DNA of 64,000 nucleotides, taken from assembly GCF_024172085.1 (NCBI RefSeq), contig NZ_JAMZDZ010000001.1, forward strand, positions 7,874,001 to 7,938,000, written 5' to 3'. The notes beneath the pieces were generated by a model that saw nothing but the letters and a program-made list of their open reading frames with translations, searched no databases and was not told where the DNA came from. Shown here one piece after another: positions 1-14,872 of this stretch (position 1 is the stretch's first letter; every line of letters begins with the position of its first letter). The DNA is from Hamadaea flava. Lineage in GTDB: Bacteria > Actinomycetota > Actinomycetes > Mycobacteriales > Micromonosporaceae. Made by a program: the position numbers and the translations under genes.

Positions 1-14
1 ACGCGATCCGGATC

Positions 15-2777
15 ATGGAGGGCCTGCCGATCCCCGAGGACGGCGTACCCCAGGTGCTCGCCTTCGCCAGCCGGTTGTCCGAGCTGCTCACCGGCCCGGT
101 CTCCGACGGCCTGCGGACCTGGGTCGACACCGTCGCGGGTGGACTCGGCGTCGACCTGGCCGCCCTCGTCGTGCTGCGCGGGGGCGCGGGACCGCTCGCC
201 ACACCGCCACCGTTCACGCCGCCATCGCCACGAGGCGCGGTGCCGCCGCGTCGCTCGGAGACCCGGGTGGTCGGCGGTGGCGTACCGACCCGGAACCGGC
301 ACTTCACCGGCCGCAGCGAGTTGCTCGACAACCTGACCGACGTGCTCAGCAGCGGCGAGCAGGCGGCGGTCCTGCCGCCGGCCCTGCACGGCCTCGGCGG
401 TGTCGGCAAGACCCAGCTCGTCGTGGAGTACGTCTACCGGCACCTCGACGACTACGAGCTGGTCTGGTGGATTCCCGCCGAGCGGACCGCGACCGTCCTG
501 GCATCGCTGACCCAGCTCGCCGAGACGCTGCACCTGACCGTCGCCGAGGACCGGCAGCAGACCGCGCGGACGGTGCTCGACGCGCTGGCCGGTCTACGGG
601 TGCCGTGGCTGCTCGTCTACGACAACGCCGACGACCCGGACGTGCTCAAGCCGTTCCTGCCCGCCACCGGCGGCCACGTCATCGTGACCACCCGCAACCC
701 GGAGTGGGGCGCGGTCGGCCGGCCGATCGAGGTCGACGTCTTCCCCCGCGGCGAGAGCATCCAGCTGCTCCAAGGCCGGGGGCTGCAGCTGAAGGAGGGC
801 GAGGCCGAGGCGCTGGCCAACAAGCTCGGCGACCTGCCGCTGGCGCTGGAGCAGGCGGTCCTGTGGTGCAAGTCCACGGCGATGCCGGTGACCGAGTACA
901 TCGAGCTGCTCGACAGCCACCGCCGTTCCGATCTGCTGTCGGAGTCCAAGCCCTACGGCTACCCGATCACGGTCACGGCGTTCGTCACGCTCGCAAGCGA
1001 GACGTTGCGGGAGAAGGCTCCCGCCACCGCCCAGCTGTTCGAGCTGCTGTCCTTCCTCTCCGGCGAGCCGGTGTCGCAGAACCTGCTCAGCCGGGGCAAG
1101 TCAGCCCGCGTCACCGAGCCGCTGCGGACCACCCTCAACGATCCGGTCGCGCTCAGCCGGGTCGTGCGCGACCTGAACAACCGCGGTCTGGCCAAGGTGG
1201 ACCCGGCGCAGCGCATCCAGGTGCACCGCCTGGTCCAGGACATCCTGCGCGACATCCTCCCGGCCGACCGGGCGGAGGTGACGCTGCGCAACGCCCAGCG
1301 GCTGCTGGCCGCCGCCAACCCCGGCGACCCGGACGAACGCGGCGAGCTGGAGAGCCAGGCCGAACTCGGCCCGCACCTCGACCGCGCCCGGATGATCTAC
1401 GCCGAGGACGACGACGCGCGCGTCGCGGTCCTGGACCACGCCCGATACCTCTACCTGATCGGTGACTACGAGAACAGCGTCCGGCTCTCCTCCGAGGCCG
1501 TCGCGTACTGGAGCCAGCCCAGCGACGACCCGCTGCTCGGCCCGGACGGCCTCTACACGCTGCGCGCGTCCAGCGTCCAGTCCAACGCGCTGCGCGCGCT
1601 GGGCCAGGCAAGCGAGGCCCGCGACATCGCCAACGACACCTACGACCGGATGTGCGCCAGCCCGCTGATCGGCGAGATGCACGAGTTCACCCTCATCCAC
1701 GCCAACCAGGTGGGCCACTCGCTGCGGATCGCCGGGCGCTACAACGACGCGCTGGAGTTCGACACCGGATCGCTGGCCCGGCACCGGCACGTGTTCAACG
1801 CGGCCGAGGCGTACACCCTCCGGGCGCAGGCCAACCTCGCCGTCGACCTGCGCATGATCGGCGACTTCGCCCAGGCCTTCGAGCAGGACCGCGAGATCGC
1901 CAACCACTGGGAAGACGTCGGCGGCACCGACCCCCGAGCCCTGGCGGCGTACATCAACCAGGCCCGCAACTACTACGGCATGGGCGCGTACCGGGCCGGT
2001 CTGGAGTGGATCCAGCAGTGGCGGGAGCCGCTGGCCGACGCCCTCGGCGCGGGCAGCAGCCAGGTCTTGCTGGCCGACCGGACCTACGCGATCCTGCTGC
2101 GCAAGCTCGGCTACCTCTTCGAGGCGCGCGCGGTCCTCCGCGAGCACCTCGAACGCAGCCTGAGCCGGTTCGGTGAGACCCACGAGTTCACCAACGCCGC
2201 CGCCGTCAGCTACGCGAACGTGCTGCGCCAGGTCGGCGAGCCGGACGAGGCGGCCCAGCTGCTCGAGGACGCGCTCGAACGTTACGACCTCTACTTCGGC
2301 GTCAAGCACCCGCTGACCCTGGCCGCCCGGGTCAACCAGGGCATCCTCATGCGATCGATGGGCGACTACGACGACGCCCGCGTCCTCGGCGAGAGCTGCT
2401 ACGCCGACTTCGCCGAGGTGCTGGGCGCCAGCCACCCGTACACCATCTGCGCCGGGGTCTCCCGGGCGACCGACCTGGCCATCGCCGGCGAGCACGAGGC
2501 CGCCGCCGCGCTGTCGGAGCAGATGTACCAGATCAGCCAGCAGCTGGCCGGCGGCGGCCACGAGGCCCGCAACGGCGCCGAGCACCCATACCTGCTGATG
2601 CGCGGGATCAACCTGGCGCACGACCTGCGGGCGGTGGGCAAGACGGCCGAGGCGGACCGATACCGGCAGACGTCCTACCGGGCGCTGCGCGACTCGCTGG
2701 GGGCCAACCACCCCGAGGTACAGGCCATCGAACGGGACGAACGGACCGAGGGCGACATCGAGCCGCCCCCGACCTGA
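15..2777 (+). CDS. fxsT: FxSxx-system NB-ARC/TPR protein (STAND ATPase), possibly 5'-truncated by the window edge
   Basis: The protein has about 100 N-terminal residues of low similarity to anything I recognise, then an NB-ARC ATPase. The P-loop GLGGVGKT is at residues 126-133, followed by a hydrophobic Walker B-like strand (LLVYDNADD) and a GDLPLAL motif. From about residue 430 to the end there are tetratricopeptide repeats with the spacing of bacterial signal-transducing STAND proteins. Such proteins are known as companions of FxSxx-COOH RiPP clusters; here the cluster lies immediately downstream in convergent orientation, 4 bp away. The reading frame stays open to base 3, so the ATG at 15 may be internal and an N-terminal domain may lie outside the window. 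Family assignment is firm from domains plus context. What it senses is unknown. Confidence 0.85.
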   Translation: MEGLPIPEDGVPQVLAFASRLSELLTGPVSDGLRTWVDTVAGGLGVDLAALVVLRGGAGPLATPPPFTPPSPRGAVPPRRSETRVVGGGVPTRNRHFTGRSELLDNLTDVLSSGEQAAVLPPALHGLGGVGKTQLVVEYVYRHLDDYELVWWIPAERTATVLASLTQLAETLHLTVAEDRQQTARTVLDALAGLRVPWLLVYDNADDPDVLKPFLPATGGHVIVTTRNPEWGAVGRPIEVDVFPRGESIQLLQGRGLQLKEGEAEALANKLGDLPLALEQAVLWCKSTAMPVTEYIELLDSHRRSDLLSESKPYGYPITVTAFVTLASETLREKAPATAQLFELLSFLSGEPVSQNLLSRGKSARVTEPLRTTLNDPVALSRVVRDLNNRGLAKVDPAQRIQVHRLVQDILRDILPADRAEVTLRNAQRLLAAANPGDPDERGELESQAELGPHLDRARMIYAEDDDARVAVLDHARYLYLIGDYENSVRLSSEAVAYWSQPSDDPLLGPDGLYTLRASSVQSNALRALGQASEARDIANDTYDRMCASPLIGEMHEFTLIHANQVGHSLRIAGRYNDALEFDTGSLARHRHVFNAAEAYTLRAQANLAVDLRMIGDFAQAFEQDREIANHWEDVGGTDPRALAAYINQARNYYGMGAYRAGLEWIQQWREPLADALGAGSSQVLLADRTYAILLRKLGYLFEARAVLREHLERSLSRFGETHEFTNAAAVSYANVLRQVGEPDEAAQLLEDALERYDLYFGVKHPLTLAARVNQGILMRSMGDYDDARVLGESCYADFAEVLGASHPYTICAGVSRATDLAIAGEHEAAAALSEQMYQISQQLAGGGHEARNGAEHPYLLMRGINLAHDLRAVGKTAEADRYRQTSYRALRDSLGANHPEVQAIERDERTEGDIEPPPT

Positions 2778-2781
2778 TCGG

Positions 2782-4059
2782 TCACCCGGCGGCGGCCGGG
2801 TTCCGCTCGCGCCACTGCCGCAAGGTGTCGCCCAAGGCCAGCTCGGCCGCGTGGACGACCTCGTCCGGCAGCGGCTCGGCGAGCAGTTCGTCGGTGCGCT
2901 CCCGCAGACCGCGCACCAGGCGTACGCCGTCGGGCAGCAGCGAGCCGGACGCCTCGACGGAGCGCAGTCCTTCGGCGACGTTGATCCGGGCCTCGGCGAA
3001 CTTGCGGGTGGCCTCCTCGGCGATCTCCGGTTCGAGACGCAGTCCTCGCCAGCTGTCGGCCACTCCAACGAAGGCGTACACGCCTTGCAGGAGACCGGCC
3101 AGCGGACGGGGGTCGGTCCGCCACGGGGCGAAGTGGCGGCTGGTGTCGTGCGGGTCCGTCATCGGCGTCAGATCGAGGATCGCGCTGAGCTTCGAATGCT
3201 GGAACTCGTGCACCATCGTCACCGCGAACTCCGCCGCCGACGGCGGCAGGGTGAGGCCGAAGACGCCGAAGGCGTACTTGATCGTGGCGCTGCGGGCCGC
3301 CCGGGAGTCGGTCTGCAACGGCACGAGCGTCCGCAGACCGGCCGCGAGCTCGGCGGCGCGCCCCGGCAGCCGCCGGGTCAGCAGGCCCCACGCCTCGCCG
3401 AACAGCTTGTCCCACTGCTCGAAGTCGGCGTCGTCGAGCCGGTTCGCCGGAGGAGCGTGATGCCCGTGCCGGTACGGGTCGACGTCGTCGAGCGCGATCC
3501 GCACGCTGGGCGCGGTCAGGTCCCGCACCCGCTGCAACCCGGGCACGTCCCCGTCCCCGGACAGCAGTACGCGGCGCCCGCCGACATCGGTCGTGAGCCG
3601 GCCGCCGTCGGCGATCAGGCGCACCGGGGCGTCGCCGGCCGAAAGCGCGCCGAGGCCCGGCACCGACGCGACGCCGTTGCGGACCGGCACCGCCAGGTCG
3701 GCCGGTACGCCACAAGCCGCGGCCGCGACCGCCGCGATGCCCGCGAGCTGCCCGAAGTCGGACGGGTCGGCGATGCCCTGGCCCAGGGCGCGGGTCGCGA
3801 TGCCGGACCAGGAGCCGACCAGCGGAGCGCCGACGACCTCGGCGAACCGGTCCGGGTCGGCGTCGCGCGCCCGGTCGAGGACCTCGCCGATGGCGTCGCG
3901 TTCGGCCGGCGCCCCCGGCCATTCCCGCAGCAGGTTTCCGATGAGGAGCAGGTGGCGGCTCAGCTGCGCCCGCTGCAGCTCGGCGATGGCGGCCGGTCCG
4001 CCGTCGCCCACGGCGAGCGTGGTGAAGGTGTCGGTATCGAGTTCGTGGAACGTCGTCAC
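2782..4059 (-). CDS. aKG-HExxH-type peptide beta-hydroxylase of the FxSxx cluster
   Basis: A 425-residue protein carrying HEFQH at residues 284-288 (HExxH). The preceding 280 residues are helical and alanine-rich. Proteins of this type occur next to FxsB radical SAM maturases; recent work assigns the family to 2-oxoglutarate-dependent peptide beta-hydroxylation, where HExxH binds iron instead of forming a metalloprotease centre. The start codon overlaps the stop of fxsB (ATGA, 4056-4059), so the two are translationally coupled and form one operon with the precursor gene. The expected substrate is the 64-residue peptide encoded upstream, modified in the cytoplasm. Substrate and reaction are inferred from family and context. 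Confidence 0.82.
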   Translation of the reverse strand: MTTFHELDTDTFTTLAVGDGGPAAIAELQRAQLSRHLLLIGNLLREWPGAPAERDAIGEVLDRARDADPDRFAEVVGAPLVGSWSGIATRALGQGIADPSDFGQLAGIAAVAAAACGVPADLAVPVRNGVASVPGLGALSAGDAPVRLIADGGRLTTDVGGRRVLLSGDGDVPGLQRVRDLTAPSVRIALDDVDPYRHGHHAPPANRLDDADFEQWDKLFGEAWGLLTRRLPGRAAELAAGLRTLVPLQTDSRAARSATIKYAFGVFGLTLPPSAAEFAVTMVHEFQHSKLSAILDLTPMTDPHDTSRHFAPWRTDPRPLAGLLQGVYAFVGVADSWRGLRLEPEIAEEATRKFAEARINVAEGLRSVEASGSLLPDGVRLVRGLRERTDELLAEPLPDEVVHAAELALGDTLRQWRERNPAAAG

Positions 4060-5315
4060 TTCTCAGGTCTCTCCAGTGCGGCGGCGCGCCGCAGATCGGT
4101 GGCGACGCGCGCGGTGATGTGATCGATGAGGCGGCGCAGATCGGCGCAGTACGCCGATGGGTTGCGGAACCCGGCGCCCGGCCGGTATCGGTGGGCGTAG
4201 TGGCCGCCGCCGCAGACCTCGCGGACGGGACAGCCGAGGCAGATCTCCGACAGGGCCTGCCGGCCGAGCTGACGGGCGACCACGCCCGGGTCGTCGAAGA
4301 CGTCGTCGAGGTCGTGGTGGCGTACGTCGAGCCCGGTCGCCGCGGCGCCGGGGTAGGCGGACTTCAGCGCGTCGACCTGCTCGATCGCCCCGTCGGACTC
4401 GACGACCAGCATCCCAGCCGGGCTCAGCCCGACCTGTTCGGAGCCGCTCGCGCCGCCCAGCAGCAGCGCCAGGATGTCGTCGAACAGCCGGACGCGGATG
4501 GGATCCTGCCGGCCGTACCAGTGGTCGAAGACCGCGATCAGCCAGTCGGCGTACGGGGTCGCCCCGGGCCGCGCGTGCGGCGGCGGAGTGGCCCAATTCG
4601 CATGGGGGAGAAGGAAATCGATCGTCGGCGGGTCGAACGACGACAGCGTCTCGAAGGTCGCGATCGGATCCGACTCGGCCGACACAGTGGACAGGATGCC
4701 GGCGTACGCGGGCCGCAGATCCGGCTCCCGCAACAGTTCCAGCGCCTTGGCGGCACCGGCGAAGCTGCCCCGGCCGGACCGAGTACGCCGATGGCGGTCA
4801 TGGTCGGCCTCGGTCCCGTCGACGCTGACGCCGACGGAGATCTGCAAACCGACCAGCCGCTCCAGCGTGCGCCGAGTCAGCAGTACGCCGTTGGTCTGCA
4901 TCCCGACCTCGGCCCGGGTGCTCAACGGCAGCTTGGCATGCAAGTACGCCACGAGCCGCTCGATGCGGTCGAGGCGGAACAGCAGCGGTTCCCCGCCGTG
5001 CAGGATCACCCGCACCCGGCGTACGCGATGCCGGGCGGTGTAGCGCGCGAGGTTGTCGACGGCGGCCTGCCACACCTCGGTGGACATCACCGCCGGGCGG
5101 TCCCGCCAGCTCTGGTCGGCCGACTCGTAGACGTAGCAGTAGTCGCAGGCCAGATTGCACCGCTGGTGGACCTTGAGGATCAGGTCGCGAACCGGAGTAG
5201 GTCGCCAGCCGGCGGCGCGCAACCGCTCCGGGTCCAGCTCGGCGTACGGCCATGGTGCGGCCGCCCGCTGCGCGTCCCGGAGCAGGCTCACCCCGCCGAC
5301 CGGCGCCGTCGTCAT
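4056..5315 (-). CDS. fxsB: FxsB family cyclophane-forming radical SAM/SPASM peptide maturase
   Basis: The 419-residue protein has the radical SAM motif CNLACDYC with cysteines 53, 57 and 60, followed by a GGEPLL segment typical of SAM binding. The C-terminal SPASM-like region is rich in cysteines (ICLGC, VREVC, SAYC) and should bind auxiliary iron-sulfur clusters. FxsB enzymes join a phenylalanine ring carbon to the beta carbon of a residue two places later, making a three-residue cyclophane in a RiPP precursor. The gene starts 11 bp after the precursor gene and overlaps the hydroxylase gene by 4 bp, so precursor, maturase and hydroxylase are co-expressed. Identification is strong; linkage chemistry on this precursor is predicted. 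Confidence 0.92.
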   Translation of the reverse strand: MTTAPVGGVSLLRDAQRAAAPWPYAELDPERLRAAGWRPTPVRDLILKVHQRCNLACDYCYVYESADQSWRDRPAVMSTEVWQAAVDNLARYTARHRVRRVRVILHGGEPLLFRLDRIERLVAYLHAKLPLSTRAEVGMQTNGVLLTRRTLERLVGLQISVGVSVDGTEADHDRHRRTRSGRGSFAGAAKALELLREPDLRPAYAGILSTVSAESDPIATFETLSSFDPPTIDFLLPHANWATPPPHARPGATPYADWLIAVFDHWYGRQDPIRVRLFDDILALLLGGASGSEQVGLSPAGMLVVESDGAIEQVDALKSAYPGAAATGLDVRHHDLDDVFDDPGVVARQLGRQALSEICLGCPVREVCGGGHYAHRYRPGAGFRNPSAYCADLRRLIDHITARVATDLRRAAALERPEK

Positions 5316-5326
5316 CCTGCAGTGAT

Positions 5327-5521
5327 TCAGGACGAGGTGAACGACTGGAAGGCCGAGATGATCCCGTCCGGGTCGTCCAGCGCCCGGATCACCCGGCGGG
5401 CCGCCCTAGCCAGGGCGTCGTCACCGCCTTGGATCACGTCGAGCATCCGACGGTCGGAAAGGTCCACAAGCGGCGACCATTCGCCGGAAACGGTCTCCGG
5501 CATAGTTGCTGCGTTCACCAT
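5327..5521 (-). CDS. fxsA: FxSxx-type cyclophane RiPP precursor with a doubled F-x-S tail
   Basis: A 64-residue peptide with an acidic leader (WSPLVDLSDRRML) like those of FxSxx precursors and a C-terminus AFQSFTSS. Canonical family members end F-x-S-x-x. Here the last residues hold two consecutive F-x-S triplets, FQS and FTS, followed by one serine, so the register of the second triplet is shifted by one from the consensus. Both triplets fit the aromatic-x-acceptor rule for three-residue cyclophanes. The start is supported by GGGGAG just upstream of the ATG. The gene heads fxsB and the hydroxylase gene on the same strand. Being the substrate is inferred from position and motif. Confidence 0.88.
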   Translation of the reverse strand: MVNAATMPETVSGEWSPLVDLSDRRMLDVIQGGDDALARAARRVIRALDDPDGIISAFQSFTSS

Positions 5522-5620
5522 ATGCTCCCCATAGGGTGCGTGTTTCTCTCATCTCCAGGCAGGCTTGCCCGGCGATTCACCATAGGATGCGCGGAGATCA
5601 TTCCCCAGCGGAAACCCTCG

Positions 5621-5653
5621 AACTTGGCAAAACTTGACGCCACCCGGGTGACC
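5621..5653 (-). promoter_or_regulatory. bipartite conserved element upstream of fxsA
   Basis: Read on the minus strand, the element is GGTCACCCGGGTGGC, then GTC, then AAGTTTTGCCAAGTT. It ends 99 bp before the fxsA start. A near-identical copy at 30479-30508, also on the minus strand, lacks only the 3-bp spacer and has few substitutions. Conservation of two blocks in nearly empty intergenic DNA suggests a binding site or promoter. I do not see a convincing -10 downstream. Confidence 0.6.
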
Positions 5654-5697
5654 CCGTCAGTGCCGGGCTGACCTGCGAATCCATCCGTCTGTCCCGG

Positions 5698-8436
5698 TCA
5701 CATCGGCCAGGGGTCCAGGTCGCACTCCACCCGGTTTCCCCGGGCGAACCGGGCGACCAGTTCGTGCTCCCCGAACAGCTTCGTCCACCCCGCGAGCATG
5801 CTCTCGCGCAACGGTTCGTCGGCGCTTCCGACGGCCACCAGGTCGAGGGCCAGATTCGTGCCCGCCGCGAGGGTGTCGGGGTGTTCCGGCCCCAGGACAC
5901 GGTCCGCGACCGCGTACGCCGATCGCGAGGCCGCGACCGCGCCCGCCCGGTCGCCGGTCAACGCCAGATCCGTCGCGTGGTTGACCGCGGCGACGATCGC
6001 GTACGGGTGATCGGCGCCGAGCGTACGCCGGAGCTGCTCAGCGGCCCGCTGACCGAGCTGCCGGGCGATGGGCCACTGGCCCTGGGCGCGATGGACGGCG
6101 GCGAGGTTGACCCGGGCCACCACCGCGAGCGGGTGCCGGTCGGACAGCCGCCGCTCGTACGCCGAGATCGCGTCGATGATCAGCTGCTCGGCCCGGCTGG
6201 TCCGCCCGGCCTCCCGGAGCGCGTTGGCGTAACTCAGCGTCACCGCCAGCATCTGCGGCGCGGCCTGATCGAGCAGTTCCCCGCAGCGCAGGTGCAGCGC
6301 TGCCAGCTCGTCGAGCGCACCCGGCCGGCCGAGGCGTCGGCGCACCGCCGCCGCCGTACGCACCGCCGCCAGCACCCCGGGATCGTGGTCGCCGATGAGC
6401 CGGGTGCCCTTGGCGGTGTACTGGTCGAGCAGGTCCAGCGCCGGCTCGAACCGGCCTAGCCCGGTCAGGTCGTCGGCGAGCGCGAACGCGACCCGGACAG
6501 CGTCGATGGCATCGTCCGAGGCGGTCAGCCGATCGAAGTCGTGCTGGTCGAGATCAGCCGCCTGGGCGTACTGCCCGGCGTGGCGCAGGCTCGCGGCCAG
6601 GCTGCGGCGGCAGTCCACCGTCCGGGGATGGGCCGAGCCCAACGCCGCCACCGACCGCTCGTACGCCTTTCGCTGCGCGTCGACCGCGCGGGTGTACCGG
6701 CCCATCATCAGCAGATCCAGCGCCGCCCCCACCTCGGCCGCCAGGGTCAGCTCGTGATCCGCCCCGTACGCCGGGCTCGTCTGCAACTGCCGCACCGCGG
6801 CCGAGGCCAGCGACCGCGCCTCGGCGTACGCCCCCAGGCCGCGCAGCGCCGCGGCCAGTTCGACGCGGGCACGCAGCACGAGTTCGTGGTCCGGGCCGAG
6901 CGAACCGGGCCGCTGCCATTGCTCGACCGCCGACCGGGCCAGGTCGGCCGCGCCGGCCAGGTCGCCGTCCAGCGCCCGGAACCGGATCTGGTCGATGATC
7001 AGGTGCTGGGCGTTCGGGTTGTCGGACTCGACCAACCGGGCCGGTTGCAGGTGGGCGTCGATGTCGCGGTAGCCCTGGGCCAGCGCCGAGCCGGGCGGCC
7101 CCAGCCGCGTACGCGCGAGGATCTCGTGCACGTGGTGCCAGGCGACCTCGGCGTCCCCGGCCGGGATGATCTCGACGAGCGCCTGCCGGGCCGGTGCGGT
7201 CATCTCCACCTGATGCGCGCCCAGCCGGACCAGGCCGTAGTTGGCCAGTTCACGCAGCGCGATACGCAGCTCGATCGGGTTGGCCAGGATCTCGCCGACC
7301 CGGCCTTTGACCGTCCCGTCGCGTTGCAGCAACGCCATCGGCACCGGGGCCGCGCCGAACCAGCCGAACAGGTCGAGGATGCGGCGATGATCGGGACTGA
7401 GGATCTCGCGGACCGCGCGTACCGTGCCGACCAAGGGGCCGGACGGGGCATGCGAGTCGCGCAGGGTCTCCAGGTCGATGCGGGCCGCGATGTCCAGCGC
7501 CAGCGGCAGCCGCCCAGCCAGCTCGATGATCTCGGTGCGCTCGGAGTCCGTGCTCTCCGGCAGCCGGCGTTCGAGGAACTCGGCGGCCTCGTCGGGGCCG
7601 AAGTCGAGCACCTCGACCTCGATCATCGAGGTGTCGTAGGCCAGTTCGCGGTCGGTCGTGGTGACCAGGACATGCCCGCCGCCGTTGGGGATCAGGCCGC
7701 GTACCTGGCGATCCTCCACGCCGTCGAAGATCAGCAGGTAGGGCAGGTTCGGCGAGCCGAGGTACGCCTTCAACGCGCCCAGCGACCGGTCGCCGTCGGC
7801 GAGGCCGAGCTCGGTGGCCAGGTCGGTCAGGTCGGCGCGGGCCTGATCGGCGCTGGCGCAGCGGATCCACCAGGTCACCGGATAGTCGTCGGGATACCGG
7901 TACGCGTACTCCGCCGCGAGCTGGGTCTTGCCGGTGCCGTTGACCCCGTGCAGCACGACCGTCGCCGTCGGATGCTGATCGAACGCGTTGCGCAGCCGGA
8001 TCAGGGCCGCTCGGCGGCCGGTGAACCAGGTGTTGCGGTCGGGCAGCTGACGTACCGGCCGGGAGCCGTTCTCGGCCCGGGGCGGCGACGGCAGGCCGCG
8101 CCCGGAACGCAGGGTTCGGTAGTCCTGCTGGGCGAGCGTCCACAGTGTCTGGAACTCGGTGAGGATCTCCGGCTCGGCCCGCGGCCGGGGCGTACGCCGG
8201 TTCAGCTCGGCGACGATCGACAGGTATTTCGGCCAGGACAGCAGGTAGGTGCCCTTGAGCGCGGCCCGGTAGGTCTCGTGGGAGACCGCCTCCAGCAGCC
8301 GGTTCTTGAAGATGGCCGAGCTGATGGTCCGCGCCGACGGGCCGCCGGCGAGCAGGTAGAGGTCGTGCAACCTGTCAACCAGGTCGCGAAACGGTCCCGG
8401 CGGAACCGCGTCGTCACCGGGTCTGCTTATCTGCAC
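5698..8436 (-). CDS. NB-ARC/TPR STAND protein upstream of the FxSxx operon
   Basis: The GTG-started 912-residue protein begins with a roughly 110-residue helical domain (region with PSARTISSAIF) of the kind that replaces effector or helix-turn-helix domains in actinobacterial STAND proteins. An NB-ARC ATPase follows, with P-loop GVNGTGKT at residues 164-171 and Walker B-like LLIFDGVED. From about residue 450 it is tetratricopeptide repeats, with recurrent LGxxHPxT segments. It is a distant paralogue of the protein at 15-2777. It reads in the same direction as fxsA, 176 bp ahead, so it flanks the RiPP cluster on the other side. It could be a sensor for the RiPP system or an independent conflict protein; the sequence does not decide. 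Confidence 0.82.
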   Translation of the reverse strand: MQISRPGDDAVPPGPFRDLVDRLHDLYLLAGGPSARTISSAIFKNRLLEAVSHETYRAALKGTYLLSWPKYLSIVAELNRRTPRPRAEPEILTEFQTLWTLAQQDYRTLRSGRGLPSPPRAENGSRPVRQLPDRNTWFTGRRAALIRLRNAFDQHPTATVVLHGVNGTGKTQLAAEYAYRYPDDYPVTWWIRCASADQARADLTDLATELGLADGDRSLGALKAYLGSPNLPYLLIFDGVEDRQVRGLIPNGGGHVLVTTTDRELAYDTSMIEVEVLDFGPDEAAEFLERRLPESTDSERTEIIELAGRLPLALDIAARIDLETLRDSHAPSGPLVGTVRAVREILSPDHRRILDLFGWFGAAPVPMALLQRDGTVKGRVGEILANPIELRIALRELANYGLVRLGAHQVEMTAPARQALVEIIPAGDAEVAWHHVHEILARTRLGPPGSALAQGYRDIDAHLQPARLVESDNPNAQHLIIDQIRFRALDGDLAGAADLARSAVEQWQRPGSLGPDHELVLRARVELAAALRGLGAYAEARSLASAAVRQLQTSPAYGADHELTLAAEVGAALDLLMMGRYTRAVDAQRKAYERSVAALGSAHPRTVDCRRSLAASLRHAGQYAQAADLDQHDFDRLTASDDAIDAVRVAFALADDLTGLGRFEPALDLLDQYTAKGTRLIGDHDPGVLAAVRTAAAVRRRLGRPGALDELAALHLRCGELLDQAAPQMLAVTLSYANALREAGRTSRAEQLIIDAISAYERRLSDRHPLAVVARVNLAAVHRAQGQWPIARQLGQRAAEQLRRTLGADHPYAIVAAVNHATDLALTGDRAGAVAASRSAYAVADRVLGPEHPDTLAAGTNLALDLVAVGSADEPLRESMLAGWTKLFGEHELVARFARGNRVECDLDPWPM

Positions 8437-8591
8437 GGCGTGGCTCGCTTCTGGAGAACCGCGTACGGCGGGCGGGGTGGACCCGACGCGAGCATATCGA
8501 CGCCGCGCACTCCCGCGCCATCGACACGCGTTATCGGACGCGGCCCTCGCGGGCTCGGCATCAGTTGTCCGCAGCGGATAGATTTGCCGCT

Positions 8592-9455
8592 ATGGCGCGC
8601 GTCGTAGTGGTGCACGGGATCAACAACACGTACGCGAGCCGTCCCCAGATGGCCGATCGGTGGATCCCCGCGTTGCGTGGGGGCCTGGACAACGCCGTCC
8701 TCGAAGGACTGATCGCGCCGGTCGAGGTCGCCGCCTCCGACGTCGAATGCGTCTTCTACGGCGATCTGTTCCGGCCGGCCGGACGACGGCTCAGCGGTGA
8801 CGTGCCGCCGTTGACGGCCGACGACGTCGAGGACGGCCCGGAACTGGACCTGCTGCTGGCCTGGTGGGCGGCGGCCGCCGAAGCCGATCCCGCGGTGCCG
8901 TCACCCGGAGGGCGCACGCTCGGGCCCAAGGCGAGCGCGCGGGCGGCGGTGCTGGCACTGGCCGGGTCGCGGTTCCTGGCCCGGGTCTCCGAGCGGCTGC
9001 TGATCTTCTGGCTCAAGCAGGTCACGGCGTACTTCACCGACCCGGCGATCCGGGCGGGCGTGCAGGACCGGTTCGCCGCCGCGATCTCCGCCGACACCCG
9101 GGTCGTCGTAGCGCACTCGCTCGGCTCGGTGGTGGCGTACGAGGCGCTGTGCGCGCATCCTGAGTGGCCGGTCACTGATCTGGTCACGCTGGGCTCGCCG
9201 CTGGGCGTACCGCACCTCGTGCTGCATCGGCTCGTGCCGCCGGTCGGGACCTGGCCGGGCGTCGCCCGCTGGGTCAACGTCACCGATTCGGGGGACTTCG
9301 TGGCGCTGCGGCCCACCCTGCGCGACGTCTACGGCGACCGCGTGGTGGACGTGGCGATCTCCAACGGGATGAGCGCCCACGAGGTGGAGCGGTACCTGTC
9401 GGCCGCGCCGACCGGAGCGGCCGTCGCCGCCGGCCTCCTGAATGGACAGCGTTAG
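8592..9455 (+). CDS. alpha/beta-hydrolase (lipase/esterase-like), coupled to a caspase-WD40 gene
   Basis: A 287-residue protein opening with VVVVHGINNT, the oxyanion strand and HG motif of alpha/beta hydrolases. The nucleophile elbow AHSLGSVVAYE (G-x-S-x-G variant, Ser near residue 176) and a late histidine in MSAHEVERY complete a plausible triad. I choose the ATG at 8592 because the protein there starts directly with the first beta strand; an in-frame ATG lies 27 bp upstream. There is no signal peptide, so it is probably cytoplasmic. Its stop lies 2 bp before the GTG of the caspase-STAND-WD40 gene, so the two are translationally coupled. It may be a lipid- or ester-cleaving effector controlled with that protein; this is inference. 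Confidence 0.75.
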   Translation: MARVVVVHGINNTYASRPQMADRWIPALRGGLDNAVLEGLIAPVEVAASDVECVFYGDLFRPAGRRLSGDVPPLTADDVEDGPELDLLLAWWAAAAEADPAVPSPGGRTLGPKASARAAVLALAGSRFLARVSERLLIFWLKQVTAYFTDPAIRAGVQDRFAAAISADTRVVVAHSLGSVVAYEALCAHPEWPVTDLVTLGSPLGVPHLVLHRLVPPVGTWPGVARWVNVTDSGDFVALRPTLRDVYGDRVVDVAISNGMSAHEVERYLSAAPTGAAVAAGLLNGQR

Positions 9456-9457
9456 CC

Positions 9458-12400
9458 GTGGCGGGACGGTTCTTCGTCGGCGCGGCGACCACCGAGTACG
9501 CCCCGTCGACGGGGCTGACGTCGCTGCCCGAACTGGCGGCCGAACTGGACCGCGCCACGCGGCTGTTCACCGACCTCGGCTACGAGACGGTGCCCGGCTT
9601 CGGGCTGAACCTGACCTCGGTCGAGTTCACCAACCGATTGCGGGAGTTCCTGCTGAACGCCGCCCGGCGGCCCGAGGACGTGATCGTCGTCTATTACACC
9701 GGGCACGGGGAGGTCGCCGGTTCCGCCCGCGACGTGCTGCTGCTGCCGATGGCCGACGCCACCCACGACCGGTCGTTCACCTTCCTGCGGGCCGGCGACC
9801 TGACCGAGCGGCTGCTCGACAGCGACGAGCCCGGCCAGCTGGTCGGCCAGCAACTGCTGTTCATCCTCGACACCTGTTACGCCGGGGCCGGCGGCGGCTC
9901 GCTGGCGGCGGGCGCGGTCGGGTTCGTCAACCGTCTGCGGCGTACCGCGAGCGGGCCCGCGGTCGCGGTGATCGTCGGCGCCCGTGACTACCAGCAGGCC
10001 GGGGTCGGCACGTTCACCCAGGCGCTGACCCGCTCGGTGCGGCAGCGGGCGCTGGCCGGGCACGAGGTCCGCCACATCCCGCTCGATCCGCTGGTCACCC
10101 AGATCAACGCGGAGATGGCCGCGAGCGGTGGCGCGGTCGCCGACCAGGCCGCCCGGCTGCTGTTCGTCGGCGAGCGGGCCGCCGAGTTCTTCCCCAACCG
10201 CCGCTACGACGAGTGGTACTCCAACGTCGACGTCCGCACCCGGGAACTGCGGCTGCAGCGCGACGCGCGGGTGCGCGACCGCGAAGCCGCCGGCCTGTCC
10301 GCGCAGGGGCTGTCCGACTTCGTCGAGCGTGACGATCTGTGGCTGTTCACCGGACGGCACGCGGCATTGCGGCAGGCCACCGCCTGGCTGGCCGGCGCGG
10401 CACCGCCCACGATGGTGATCACCGGCGATCCCGGTTCGGGCAAGTCCGCGCTGCTCGCCCGCCTGGACATGCTCGCCGATCCCGCCCGCAGCGCACGGAT
10501 TCCCAACATCCACTCGCTGCCGCCGGACACCGTTCCGCAGCCCGGATCGATCACCAGATTCGTCCACGCGCGCGGGCTGACCCCGCTGGGGCTGCTCGCG
10601 GCCCTGGCCGAGGCGTGCGGCGTGGAAGACGTGGCCGCCGTCGACACCCCCGGCGGGCTGGTCACGCACCTGCGGGACCGCGCCGATCCGGTCACCGTCG
10701 TGATCGACGGGCTCGACGAGGCGGCCGGCGAGCCCGGCGACCCGCACACCGCCGGGCTCGCGCTGGTCGACACGGTGCTGGCCCCGCTGGTCAAGGCCGC
10801 GACGCGAGTCCCGCTGCGGTTGCTCATCGGCACGCGCAGCCATCTCATCGGCGCGCTCGGGGCACCCCTCGACGTGGTCCATCTCGACCGGCGGTACGCC
10901 GACCGCCCGAGCCTGCGCCGGTACGTCCGGTCGTGCCTGACGGAGTTGGTCGAGTCCTCGCCGTACCGGGGTCTTCGCCCGGCGTACCTCGACGCCGTGG
11001 TGGACGCGATCGCCGAGGCCGCCGGCGACTCGTTCCTGGTCGCGTTGATCACCGCACGCAGCCTGGCGTTGCGGGCCGATCCGGTCGCCGACCCGTACGA
11101 CGCGGGCTGGCGTACGTCGCTGCCCCGGGAGGCGGCCGAGGCGATGCGGCAGGACCTGGACGGACGCCTCGGTCCCGCCGCCGACCGCGCGCGGGACCTG
11201 CTACTGCCGCTCGCGTACGCCCAAGGCACCGGGCTGCCCTGGGAGGATGTCTGGCCGGAGCTGGCGACGCGCCTGACCGGGCGCCGCTGCGGCAACCGGG
11301 ACCTGGACTGGCTGATCGAGCACGCCGGCTACTACGTCATCGAGACGCGGCTCAACCGGGGATCGGCCTACCGGCTGTATCACGCGGCACTGGGCGCGCA
11401 TCTCCGTACCGGCCGCGACGCCGGACCCGACCACGGGGTGATCGTCGACGTGCTGCTGGACCGGGTGCCCCGGCTGCCGGACGGCACGCGGGACTGGGCC
11501 CGCGCCCATCCCTATACCGCCGCGGCCGTCGCCGGGCACGCCGCCCCGGCCGGTCGTCTGGATGAACTGCTGGCCGAGCCGCGCCTGCTCACCGAGACCC
11601 CGGCCGGTCCGCTGCTGGCCGTGCTGGACCACGTACGCACGCCGCGCGCGCGGGCCACGGCGGACGCGTACCGGCGAGCGGCCGGGCGGATGCAGGCCTA
11701 TCCGGGCGAGAAGGCGGCGTACCTGCAACTGGCGGCGCGCAGCGCCCGGGCGCCGCACCTGGCCGACGAGATCTCCGCGAGCGGCCTGCCGCTGCCGTGG
11801 GCGACACATTGGGCCTCACTGCGCCAGCACCCTCCACACCAGACACTGACCTGGCATCGCGACTGGGTGACGGCGGTGGCGATCGGCGAGGTCACCGGCC
11901 GGTCCGTCGTCGCCTCGGCAAGCGCCGACCGCACCGTACGCCTCTGGGACGTCACCACGGGGCGACCCTTCGGCGCGCCGCTGGCCGAGCACACCGACTG
12001 GGTGACGACAGTGGCCTTCGGCCAGGTCGACGACCGGGCGATCGTGATCTCGGGCGGCAACGACGGCACCGTACGCCGCTGGGACGCCGTCACCGGCCGC
12101 CCGCTGCCGGGGCCGGGCGGCCGCAGCCATCCCGGCGAGGTGCGCTCGGTGGCGTTCGGCCGCCTCGACGGCCGCCCGATCGTGGTGTCCGGCGGTGAGG
12201 ACGAGGCGGTCCGCGTCTGGGACGCGGCCACCGGCCGCCCGGTGGGACGGCCGCTGACCGGGCTGGCCGCCGGGGCGTACTGCGTCGCGGTCGGGCGGGT
12301 GCGGGACGGGATCGCGGTGGCCGCCGGGGGAGCCGACGGCACCGTCCTGATCTGGGACGCGGCGACCGGCCAACCGATCGGGGAGCCGCTGGAGCACGAC

Positions 12401-14626
12401 GGCAAGATCCGGTCCGTCGCGTTCGGACGGATCGGCGAGGACATGGCGGTGATCTGCGGGGCCGACGACCATCGCGTCCACGTGCGCTGCGCCACGACCG
12501 GCGAACTGCTCACCGCGCCCTACGCCGGGCACGCCGCCGCCGTCACCTCCGTGGCCTACGGCCGCCGGGGGACGCAGCCCGTGATCGTCTCCGGCAGCAA
12601 CGACCAGACGGTCCAGATGTGGGACGCGGAGACGGGCGCTCTGATCGGCGCGCCGTTCACCGGGCACACGGGGTGGGTGTTGTCGGTCGCCTGCCGCACC
12701 CGGGAGGGCCGCCTGCTGATCGCCTCCGGCGGTGCCGACGAGACCGTCCGGTTGTGGGACTCCGCGTCCGGCGAACCGATCGGGGAACCGTTCACCGGGC
12801 ACACGGACATGGTGACCGCCGTGGCCGCCGGAACAGCCGACGGCGAGACCATCGTGGTCTCCGGCTCGGCCGACCATTCCGTACGCCGCTGGGACGCCGT
12901 GTCCGGCCAGCCGCTCGGCCCGGCCTCGATCGGGCACACCGCCACCGTGACGGCGGTCGGGTTCGGCGAGGTCGACGGGCAGCCCGTCGTCGCATCCGCC
13001 GCGGCCGACCACTCGGTACGCCTCTGGGACCCGGCCTCCGGCGAGCCGATCGGGCAACACCTCGACGCCGGTACGCCGCTGCGCACCGTCGCGATCGGAC
13101 CGGCCGGCGAGCGTACGGTGATCGTGGCGGGAGGCGACGACGGTGCGCTGCGGGTCTGGGACGCCGCCGGCCGCCGGGCGGTGCACACCCCGCTGACCGG
13201 CCACGACGCGCCCGTCACCGCGGTCGCGATCGGCGACGCCGAAGGCCGTCCGGTGATCGTCTCCGGCGGCGCGGACCACACCGTACGCCTCTGGAACGCC
13301 GCGACCGGCGAGCCGATCACCGAGCCGCTGACCGGGCACACCGACGTCGTGACAAGCGTGGCCATCGCGACCGTGGACGGCCAGCCCGTCGTCGCCTCGG
13401 GCGCGCTCGACCGCACCGTACGCCTCTGGGACGCCGAGACCGGCGAGGCCCTCGACGACCCGGCGGTGGAACCGGCGGCCGTGCACTCCGTCGCGTTCGG
13501 CAACCTCGGCCGCGAGCCGATGATCGTCAGCGGAGGCGCCGACGCATACGTGCGCATCGCCGACGCGGGCACCGGCGAGCGGGTCGCCGACCTGTACGCC
13601 GGCCCGGCCGGGGTCCGGGCGGTCGCGGTCGCCGGAAGCCAGCCCCTGCTGGTCGCCGGGGGCGCCGATCACGTGCTGCGGGCCTGGGACGCCGCGACCC
13701 GTCAGGTCGTCGCCGCGCCTTTCGACGGGCACCGCGGACCGGTGACGGCCGTCGCGCTGGGCCGGCTCGCCGGTTCGCTCGTCGTCGTCTCCGGCAGCAC
13801 CGACCACACCGTACGCCGCTGGGACGCCGGAACCGGCCGCCCGCTGGGGCCGCCCCTGACCGGCCACGCCGACGGCGTCCGGTCAGTCGCGTATGGACAG
13901 TGGGGCGGTCGGGGGCTGATCGCCTCGGCCGGCGACGACCGCACGGTACGCCTCTGGGACGCGGCGACCGGCGTACCGGTGGGGGAGCCGTTCACCGGAC
14001 ATCGCGGCATGGTCAACGCGGTGGTCTTCGGCGAGGTCGCCGGACGGCCGGTGGTGATCTCCGGCGGCAACGACCACACCGTGCGCGTCTGGGATCTGTC
14101 CGAGCACGAGCTGCTGTACTCGCCGATCACGGCGCACGAAGGCTACGTCAGCGCGGTCGCGTTCGCGCGGCTGGCTGGACGTCCCATCGTGGTGACCGGC
14201 GGACATGATCAAGTCTTGCGAATCTGGGACGCCGCGACCGGCGAGCCTGTCGGCGATCCCCTGGCCGGGCACACCGACGACGTCAATGCCGTCTCGTGCG
14301 AGGAGCTCAGCGACCGCCTCGTCATCGCGTCGGCGAGCAACGACGGCACCGTACGCGCCTGGGACGCCGCCGCCGGCGAACCGATCGGTTCACCCTCGAC
14401 GCCGCACGAGGGGTGGGTGCACACCGTGGCGCTCGGCCGGCTCGGCGACCGGCCGATCCTTGTCAGCGGCGGCACCGACCAGACGTTGTGCGTACGCTCG
14501 CTCGCCGGTGTCGAGATGGCCCGCGTGCGGCTGTCGGCCACGGTCAACGCGGTCGCCGTACGCGACGCGGCGCATCTGGTCGTGGCCACCGATCTCGGCC
14601 TGGTGAGCCTCCGGCTACCGGGCTGA
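9458..14626 (+). CDS. caspase-like (C14) / STAND NTPase / WD40 giant protein
   Basis: A 1722-residue protein in three parts. Residues 1-235 form a caspase-like peptidase with histidine in YYTGHGE (His83) and cysteine in ILDTCYAG (Cys140). Residues about 300-790 form a STAND NTPase with P-loop GDPGSGKS near 323-330 and Walker B VVIDGLDEAAG. From about residue 797 there are 20 recognisable WD40 blades (HTxxVxxVAxG, then VRLWDAATG) plus a terminal half-blade, about 21 in all, which fits three seven-bladed propellers. Bacterial proteins of this layout are thought to be inactive until the propeller senses a trigger and then cleave cellular proteins, as in phage defence or programmed death. The coupled hydrolase upstream is the nearest partner. 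Catalytic residues are intact, so it should be active. Confidence 0.9.
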   Translation: MAGRFFVGAATTEYAPSTGLTSLPELAAELDRATRLFTDLGYETVPGFGLNLTSVEFTNRLREFLLNAARRPEDVIVVYYTGHGEVAGSARDVLLLPMADATHDRSFTFLRAGDLTERLLDSDEPGQLVGQQLLFILDTCYAGAGGGSLAAGAVGFVNRLRRTASGPAVAVIVGARDYQQAGVGTFTQALTRSVRQRALAGHEVRHIPLDPLVTQINAEMAASGGAVADQAARLLFVGERAAEFFPNRRYDEWYSNVDVRTRELRLQRDARVRDREAAGLSAQGLSDFVERDDLWLFTGRHAALRQATAWLAGAAPPTMVITGDPGSGKSALLARLDMLADPARSARIPNIHSLPPDTVPQPGSITRFVHARGLTPLGLLAALAEACGVEDVAAVDTPGGLVTHLRDRADPVTVVIDGLDEAAGEPGDPHTAGLALVDTVLAPLVKAATRVPLRLLIGTRSHLIGALGAPLDVVHLDRRYADRPSLRRYVRSCLTELVESSPYRGLRPAYLDAVVDAIAEAAGDSFLVALITARSLALRADPVADPYDAGWRTSLPREAAEAMRQDLDGRLGPAADRARDLLLPLAYAQGTGLPWEDVWPELATRLTGRRCGNRDLDWLIEHAGYYVIETRLNRGSAYRLYHAALGAHLRTGRDAGPDHGVIVDVLLDRVPRLPDGTRDWARAHPYTAAAVAGHAAPAGRLDELLAEPRLLTETPAGPLLAVLDHVRTPRARATADAYRRAAGRMQAYPGEKAAYLQLAARSARAPHLADEISASGLPLPWATHWASLRQHPPHQTLTWHRDWVTAVAIGEVTGRSVVASASADRTVRLWDVTTGRPFGAPLAEHTDWVTTVAFGQVDDRAIVISGGNDGTVRRWDAVTGRPLPGPGGRSHPGEVRSVAFGRLDGRPIVVSGGEDEAVRVWDAATGRPVGRPLTGLAAGAYCVAVGRVRDGIAVAAGGADGTVLIWDAATGQPIGEPLEHDGKIRSVAFGRIGEDMAVICGADDHRVHVRCATTGELLTAPYAGHAAAVTSVAYGRRGTQPVIVSGSNDQTVQMWDAETGALIGAPFTGHTGWVLSVACRTREGRLLIASGGADETVRLWDSASGEPIGEPFTGHTDMVTAVAAGTADGETIVVSGSADHSVRRWDAVSGQPLGPASIGHTATVTAVGFGEVDGQPVVASAAADHSVRLWDPASGEPIGQHLDAGTPLRTVAIGPAGERTVIVAGGDDGALRVWDAAGRRAVHTPLTGHDAPVTAVAIGDAEGRPVIVSGGADHTVRLWNAATGEPITEPLTGHTDVVTSVAIATVDGQPVVASGALDRTVRLWDAETGEALDDPAVEPAAVHSVAFGNLGREPMIVSGGADAYVRIADAGTGERVADLYAGPAGVRAVAVAGSQPLLVAGGADHVLRAWDAATRQVVAAPFDGHRGPVTAVALGRLAGSLVVVSGSTDHTVRRWDAGTGRPLGPPLTGHADGVRSVAYGQWGGRGLIASAGDDRTVRLWDAATGVPVGEPFTGHRGMVNAVVFGEVAGRPVVISGGNDHTVRVWDLSEHELLYSPITAHEGYVSAVAFARLAGRPIVVTGGHDQVLRIWDAATGEPVGDPLAGHTDDVNAVSCEELSDRLVIASASNDGTVRAWDAAAGEPIGSPSTPHEGWVHTVALGRLGDRPILVSGGTDQTLCVRSLAGVEMARVRLSATVNAVAVRDAAHLVVATDLGLVSLRLPG

Positions 14627-14872
14627 ACCACCTGGCGACCAGCAGCCGGTCAGACACCTACGCGTGCGGGCCTTTCGCGCAGCGAGTGTTGACGGCGATC
14701 TGCGCCTGCAGGCGGCGTTTCATCCCGCGGCCATCCAATCTGTCGGCCGCTGCGTTCGACGGCTGCAAACTGCATCGCGGGCTACCGGCGCGCCATGCGG
14801 CCGAAGTCCAGCAAGCAACCGCCGCGTCCGAAGTACCTTTCGGGCGCTGACCTTCGCCAGCCGCCGGCAAGC

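Follow-up and report, generated by a model that had tools for sequence, protein, structure and literature searches.

In the genome of the soil actinobacterium Hamadaea flava (8.86 Mb, one contig), a 64-kb stretch that we refer to as the window contains an island in which a gene row for a ribosomally synthesized and post-translationally modified peptide (RiPP) of the FxSxx type faces a putative death cassette, encoding a lipase-like alpha/beta-hydrolase (ABH) and a caspase-NACHT-WD40 protein, across a shared intergenic region of 155 bp. The peptide row is headed by FxsT2, a protein composed of a predicted XRE-type helix-turn-helix (HTH) domain, a STAND NTPase and TPR repeats, and the block of seven genes is conserved in two genera of the Micromonosporaceae. 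What is new, as judged from the predicted fold, is that an HTH-bearing FxsT2 heads a RiPP gene row that is itself widespread. We favour, although only tentatively, the reading that the island is one inherited two-module unit: HTH-STAND-TPR regulators would sense a cyclophane peptide inside the cell, and the peptide would in this way gate an exchangeable death cassette.

Conservation of the island in Hamadaea and Catellatospora

In this study, G numbers denote the genomes of a family survey (150 genomes of Micromonosporaceae) and L numbers denote fetched stretches, L009 being the 20-kb stretch upstream of the window. In the survey, an FxsB match above the cut-off was obtained in 82 genomes and an ABH match (E ≤ 0.001) in 44, and gene order was compared in 20 fetched stretches, comprising the better ABH matches and one FxsB contig. 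An earlier note on this DNA had described seven contiguous genes, and we found all of them, with every gap between them below 180 bp. Their order was intact in G002 (Hamadaea) and in G099, G117 and G128 (Catellatospora), and in G001 (Hamadaea) the block was split over two contigs; it is kept in three Hamadaea genomes, the window's included, and in three Catellatospora genomes.

DNA homology with Catellatospora extended from about L009:7762 to about position 14634 of the window (18.9 kb, in pieces of 69-86% identity), and the right end of the conserved block was the stop codon of the caspase gene. No blastn match of at least 150 bp was detected outside the homology block in the flanks compared (the 20-kb upstream stretch and the 64-kb window), the left flanks compared being short (3 to 6 kb, with contig ends). 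The three Catellatospora genomes had their own flanks in common, and G002 had the right flank of the window in common apart from an insertion. Because the flanks are common within each genus and not between the genera, the block occupies one setting per genus. This conserved synteny with differing flanks rules out that the seven genes are a chance neighbourhood. The earlier note had named a lack of co-conservation of the hydrolase-caspase pair with the FxSxx cluster as counter-evidence to its proposal; the two are in fact co-conserved in Hamadaea and Catellatospora.

At the same time, related genomes showed partial and reduced versions of the island. G003, a fourth Hamadaea genome, had two FxsB loci above the cut-off and no ABH match, and the nearest of its clusters (L075) comprised the genes for FxsT1, the HExxH hydroxylase, FxsB and FxsA, with an end of FxsT2 at the contig edge. 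Within the Catellatospora genus (g17) the intact island was not seen in G019, G053, G087, G108, G124 and G132. G087 carried ABH-caspase alone, and in G132 ABH immediately preceded the gene of another FxsB, 47% identical; a frame resembling a precursor and ending in SAFDSRI separated the two, and the caspase gene followed beyond the STAND genes of that cluster. In G108, the same flanks as in the other Catellatospora enclosed only the HExxH gene, fxsB and fxsA, all with open frames, together with an HTH remnant of fxsT2, and this site gave no match to KGGVGR-STAND, FxsT1, the STAND-TPR body of FxsT2, ABH or caspase. The reduction of fxsT2 to its HTH part (window 8101-8436 against L077:9957-10343) left a piece that could possibly be a freestanding HTH regulator or a remnant. 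Both FxsT proteins were retained in L215 and L238, where the fetched stretch gave no match to FxsB or the HExxH gene and no ABH-caspase was seen.

FxsT2 and the region shared with the putative death cassette

The TPR repeats of FxsT2 were recognised by Pfam and its HTH domain by predicted fold only. The structure model of the HTH domain had a predicted local distance difference test (pLDDT) value of 88.6, and its fold comparison gave lambda-repressor-like matches, the ComR DNA-binding domain (7n10) being among them. The predicted HTH and the divergent position of the gene favour a regulatory role for FxsT2. In one survey, 24 of 32 FxsT2-HTH matches were linked to FxsB, and the order HTH-FxsT2, FxsA, FxsB and HExxH, converging on FxsT1, recurred in many genomes.

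In the gap between FxsT2 and ABH (8437-8591, up to the ATG of ABH), 63 of the 155 positions were invariant across the six islands, and 30 of these fell into two runs of 15 (Table 1), whereas two runs of at least 12 were obtained in none of 20000 column shuffles. When read on the FxsT2 strand, both 15-mers contain GTCGAT and form a direct repeat 24 bp apart. Each 15-mer had exactly one exact occurrence in the window; at up to three mismatches, GCGAGCATATCGACG gave 17 matches against a shuffle mean of 4.3, a figure that we do not interpret. No canonical sigma-70 -35/-10 pair could be fitted by eye at the 15-mers, and no promoter scan was made. Similar intergenic elements were retained in G108, which lacks ABH-caspase, and for this reason the conserved elements may serve FxsT2's own promoter.

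The gene upstream of FxsT2 varies: a proposed effector slot

We surveyed the gene next upstream of FxsT2 at 47 FxsB-linked loci and in the window, 48 loci in all, leaving out one HTH match (G076:C23:291692). At 14 of them, from seven genera, this gene was a recognised death or immunity gene or encoded a STAND protein (Table 1). At the other 34, an ordinary gene, a regulator or a gene without a family was found in the 21 that were scanned with Pfam, and 13 are unscanned. CATRA-N had a single match in each of G059, G091 and G102, which was the slot gene, and one in G184 that was located elsewhere. COR-A had a single match in G151 and in G184, in both cases the slot copy, three matches in G188, one of them in the slot, and one match elsewhere in each of G091 and G076. 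As the effector profiles used for scanning the loci were built from the slot genes themselves, the absence of effectors elsewhere in the loci is a biased control. Taken as a whole, we read the FxsT2 row as a putative control module beside which the effector position is variable and in some genera holds ordinary genes.

Fusions of CATRA-N/CATRA-C with a nucleoside phosphorylase were observed divergent from HTH-FxsT2 at L204:9142-11577, L207:6278-8788 and L208:9166-11571. The LRR-Roc-COR-TIR genes, likewise divergent from HTH-FxsT2, were present in three g30 genomes (L240:8840-11839, L243:8941-12003 and L247:8842-11871).

ABH and caspase form a module of their own

The hydrolase frame was listed as 8565-9455 (+) with a TTG at 8565, but sequence conservation favours the ATG at 8592 as its start. 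Residues S185, D244 and H272, numbered from that TTG, were invariant in the alignment A1 of 15 sequences and are taken as the putative catalytic triad; the fold comparison revealed a likeness to lipases and DDHD domains. The His83/Cys140 dyad of the caspase was intact, its catalytic motifs having been checked in 14 sequences, and the pair consists of an intact caspase His/Cys beside an intact ABH triad. A TGA inside the match in G099 does not make its ABH a pseudogene, the frame being an intact open reading frame (ORF) of 287 residues that merely ends earlier. Assignment to the EACC1-caspase two-gene system was rejected (NF047832, 53.7 bits against a cut-off of 140), as were recent duplications as the origin of the WD40 repeats, 11 pattern-found units of which averaged 36% identity with a maximum of 58%. 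Tandem Repeats Finder detected two arrays of 1.9 copies each.

An ABH-alignment scan of species genomes yielded 80 loci kept of 392 relatives, including Streptomyces, other actinobacteria, cyanobacteria and one acidobacterium; these loci are not all independent, because several coincide with records of the family survey from which the caspase hidden Markov model was seeded. A caspase ORF stood beside ABH at 77 of the 80 loci, within 300 bp at 76 and at 583 bp in L185, and in L181 it was on the strand opposite to ABH. No caspase ORF was found beside ABH in L158, L177 and L194, the last two at contig ends. FxsB, by comparison, was present at four loci (L116-L119), L115 being the split Hamadaea contig. 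These frequencies, 77 and four of 80, indicate that ABH-caspase is a module of its own. ABH was absent from all of 36 further FxsB loci, hand-chosen for scanning; a single one of them (L108) matched the caspase protein, over the WD40 part only. The earlier note's linkage of the RiPP to the death genes thus holds for the block shared by Hamadaea and Catellatospora, yet the two modules are associated only facultatively.

In cyanobacteria (L133, L135, L170, L186 and L190), ABH adjoined caspase ORFs without a match to the NACHT profile built in this study. Since these partner caspases lack the match, the ABH-caspase pair may be older than the NACHT-WD40 form.

Gene content and layout

The minus-strand row consists of FxsT2, FxsA, FxsB and the hydroxylase and converges on FxsT1, and the ABH and caspase genes diverge from it. 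Order and spacing suggest cotranscription of the minus-strand genes. The earlier note had placed the RiPP cluster between two STAND proteins. Both are present, but FxsT2 heads the minus-strand row instead of merely bordering it, and a third STAND gene is located upstream: the island extends beyond the window to a KGGVGR-STAND gene in L009, which is divergent from FxsT1 and stands tail-to-tail with a second alpha/beta-hydrolase gene. The plus-strand ORFs 2851-4122 and 4119-5534 were rejected as genes, as they are without a family match and the minus-strand frames match FxSxx enzymes; L009:5788-7779 and L009:7733-8623 (minus) were rejected as being without families. A search of PADLOC-DB 2.0.0 gave no informative match to a defence system, only a match of the WD40 region to HEAT-ARM_XIII, viperin-model matches (radical SAM domain) and PDC-M28B matches (KGGVGR domain).

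Table 1. Features of the island and occupants of the slot upstream of FxsT2. Positions refer to the window unless a stretch is named.
Feature	Position or locus	Strand	Evidence or remark
FxsT1, EAD2 - VMAP-M0 - NB-ARC - TPR STAND protein	1..2777 in window	+	start 517 nt before window; 1097 residues
Peptide beta-hydroxylase, alpha-ketoglutarate/HExxH-type, HEFQH motif	2782..4059	-	TIGR04267 153.9 bits, cut-off 40
FxsB, cyclophane-forming radical SAM/SPASM peptide maturase	4056..5315	-	TIGR04269 454 bits, cut-off 370; CNLACDYC motif
FxsA, likely precursor, 64 residues, C-terminus LDDPDGIISAFQSFTSS	5327..5521	-	TIGR04268 18.4 bits, cut-off 28; conserved C-terminus
FxsT2, predicted XRE-type HTH - STAND NTPase - TPR	5698..8436	-	NF040586 564 bits
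Predicted HTH domain of FxsT2, residues 1-112	8101..8436	-	alignment A2, structure model, fold comparison
Invariant 15-mer GCGAGCATATCGACG, FxsT2/ABH intergenic	8488..8502	no strand	identical in 6/6 aligned islands
Invariant 15-mer GCGCCATCGACACGC, FxsT2/ABH intergenic	8515..8529	no strand	aligned islands, run test
ABH, lipase-like alpha/beta-hydrolase	8592..9455	+	alignment A1 of 15; fold comparison
Caspase - NACHT - WD40, 1722 residues	9458..14626	+	Peptidase_C14, NACHT and WD40 matches
Slot: ABH-caspase	window, L057-L060
Slot: CATRA-PNP	L204, L207, L208
Slot: PNP-bDLD3 (PNP-death domain)	L206
Slot: LRR-Roc-COR-TIR	L240, L243, L247
Slot: CAP12/Pycsar TIR, PNP-like gene beyond	L107	same strand as FxsT2, not divergent
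Slot: KGGVGR-STAND	L106

The FxSxx peptide and its enzymes

The precursor ends in ISAFQSFTSS, in which FxS is present (FQSFTSS) without exactly two residues after it, and this C-terminus is kept in Hamadaea and Catellatospora. The frame scored below the TIGR04268 cut-off; it is nevertheless likely to be the FxsA precursor because of its position, the presence of FxsB, its homologues and the conserved C-terminus. The enzymes place the cluster in the FxSxx type, and its precursor is a variant. The genes predict a product with cyclophane and beta-hydroxyl groups. Cyclophane formation and HExxH beta-hydroxylation are known for fused enzymes (Morishita et al. 2024, cited in PMC12636437), and HExxH enzymes are, in the part of the latter source cited here, also able to cut the peptide backbone; release of the peptide without a protease is therefore possible. 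No exporter or dedicated leader-peptidase gene was seen among the genes of the block, and in the absence of an exporter gene there the peptide probably stays in the cell.

In a set of g30 genomes (L205, L226-L228, L230 and L231), FxsB and HTH-FxsT2 are divergent and are separated by an ORF of about 280-330 residues, which in L230 matches aminoglycoside 3-N-acetyltransferase (Antibiotic_NAT). This ORF may encode a further tailoring enzyme, belonging to a variant of the FxSxx system.

FxsT1 and the KGGVGR-STAND protein

The profile NF040586 (FxSxx_TPR), with a cut-off of 300 bits, was exceeded by FxsT2, by the window part of FxsT1 (3-2777, 828 bits) and by the KGGVGR-STAND protein (422.6 bits, the match reaching only profile position 442). 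The full FxsT1 gene is L009:11484-14777, and the complete protein adds the EAD2 and VMAP-M0 domains. Its Walker A motif, GGVGKT, was read in the translation. No VMAP-M0 match besides FxsT1 was found in the genome, and a phmmer search against the PDB gave no match for FxsT1 or for the caspase-NACHT part.

Other EAD2 matches in the genome were confined to a trypsin-EAD2 gene and an EAD2-NB-ARC-TPR gene, which adjoin a Trypco1 gene; the three stand in a row at L252:5070-9978 (about 143.1-148.0 kb of the genome). If the EAD concept of Kaur et al. applies, the trypsin-EAD2 protease could be a partner that is recruited by FxsT1.

Discussion

In the mechanism that we tentatively favour, the first module would be the peptide pathway, in which FxsB would cross-link FxsA and the HExxH enzyme would hydroxylate it. 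The TPR domains of FxsT1 and FxsT2, possibly together with the third FxsT-like protein, would then recognise the mature peptide. The second module would be the death cassette, in which the NACHT-WD40 part of the caspase would sense a trigger and oligomerise and the lipase-like hydrolase would cooperate. The 155-bp region between the modules would be the binding site of FxsT2, whose peptide-bound or peptide-free state would set whether the cassette is armed; when infection or stress sets in, assembly driven by NTP would fire caspase and hydrolase. Peptide binding by the TPRs, DNA binding by FxsT2, the localisation of the peptide, the caspase targets and cell death are what we infer; the RiPP might be a ligand or a suppressor of a STAND sensor, as the earlier note had suggested.

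A serious alternative, though one that we doubt, is that the FxSxx cluster and ABH-caspase are independent systems which adjoined in the ancestor of Hamadaea and Catellatospora, as happens in defence islands, and have been co-inherited without a functional link. Several observations count in its favour: each module is common alone, the host genome is rich in NB-ARC proteins (36 matches), and both genera belong to one family, so that the intact islands may go back to a single joining event. However, the conserved block stops at the caspase stop codon while the flanks differ between the genera, and 15-bp blocks are conserved in the intergenic region that the two modules share. In addition, different death genes occupy the same position elsewhere, some of them the only copy found, and G132 presents a second association, arranged differently.

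Other rivals accept a link and assign the peptide another part in it. The peptide could be an antidote or guard that keeps the STAND proteins inactive, and loss of its synthesis, for example by phage host shut-off, would free the death cassette. G108, which lacks the STAND bodies, ABH and caspase and keeps the biosynthetic frames, shows the order of loss that such suppression would predict, with the killer going before the antidote, but it is a single case. Moreover, L215 and L238, which retain both FxsT proteins without an FxsB or HExxH match in the fetched stretch, would be forbidden by a strict antidote, although no ABH-caspase was seen there. We consider suppression of this kind improbable. 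Still less credible to us is a peptide that leaves the cell and affects neighbouring cells as a toxin or pheromone, with the STAND and caspase genes providing immunity or response. The predicted sensors are STAND proteins, which are expected in the cytosol, and the block offers neither an exporter nor a dedicated leader peptidase. An action of this kind is nonetheless in line with the proposal of Kaur et al. (2020, PMC7159879; this and the following statements on that source refer to the passages cited here) that FxSxx peptides undergo processing and, together with AP-ATPases, function as a toxin or signal. The same authors noted that independent systems can merge into larger conserved neighbourhoods.

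The island can be compared with several known systems. The standalone FxSxx/AP-ATPase systems (PMC7159879) share with it the FxSxx precursor and the HExxH, radical SAM-SPASM and AP-ATPase proteins, and an AP-ATPase with an inactive MinD/ParA-like domain in the systems of Kaur et al. resembles the KGGVGR-type gene. Unlike those systems, the island has three STANDs, a row headed by a predicted HTH protein, the ABH-caspase cassette, the intergenic footprint and the slot, and an HTH-STAND heading an FxSxx gene row is not described in the passages of Kaur et al. cited. In the VMAP (MoxR-vWA) ternary systems (PMC7159879) a caspase gene is likewise found beside an alpha/beta-hydrolase gene, by which the caspases of VMAPs are, according to the same source, always adjoined; in contrast to these, the caspase here is fused to NACHT-WD40 and accompanies a peptide-modification system. 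A figure legend in that paper, on MoxR-vWA systems, refers to mutual exclusivity with regard to peptide-modification components and to the pairings Trypco-trypsin and hydrolase-caspase; this appears to mean that they exclude each other, although the wording allows other readings. Neither MoxR nor vWA was present among the genes of the block, no genome-wide search for either having been made, and the island joins an FxSxx peptide system and a hydrolase-caspase pair without a MoxR-vWA core among its genes. As in the NLR/Apaf-1-type death machines discussed by Kaur et al. (2020), caspase, STAND NTPase and WD40 occur together, but here caspase and sensor are one polypeptide, and the likeness is one of predicted domains. 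In the literature searched, largely by listings and including passages of PMC8195603, we found no account of an FxSxx-controlled death cassette and no tested biological role of FxSxx clusters; papers containing the word FxsB deal, judging by their titles, with other subjects.

The layout of FxsT2 also has a counterpart among peptide-responsive regulators. The RRNPP regulators (ComR, Rap, PlcR) sense peptides. They unite an XRE-type HTH with TPR repeats in a single protein and have a gene for a small peptide next to them, a layout that FxsT2 would share through its predicted HTH; unlike them, FxsT2 has a STAND NTPase between HTH and TPR, its peptide is a modified RiPP, and peptide binding is only proposed. 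The island could accordingly be envisaged as an RRNPP-like circuit with an NTPase switch, in which the modified intracellular peptide is the ligand of the HTH-STAND-TPR protein and controls the swappable death cassette via the shared upstream region, a conceivable arrangement about which we have considerable reservations.

A predicted HTH-STAND-TPR regulator that faces a putative death cassette across 155 bp makes peptide control of an NLR-like regulator directly testable. If such control is true, it would join peptide-sensing regulators with caspase/NLR-type death, and it would provide a rule for finding new death effectors, namely to inspect the position upstream of HTH-FxsT2. For the bacterium itself, the island suggests that it may control a suicide or defence response by a home-made modified peptide.

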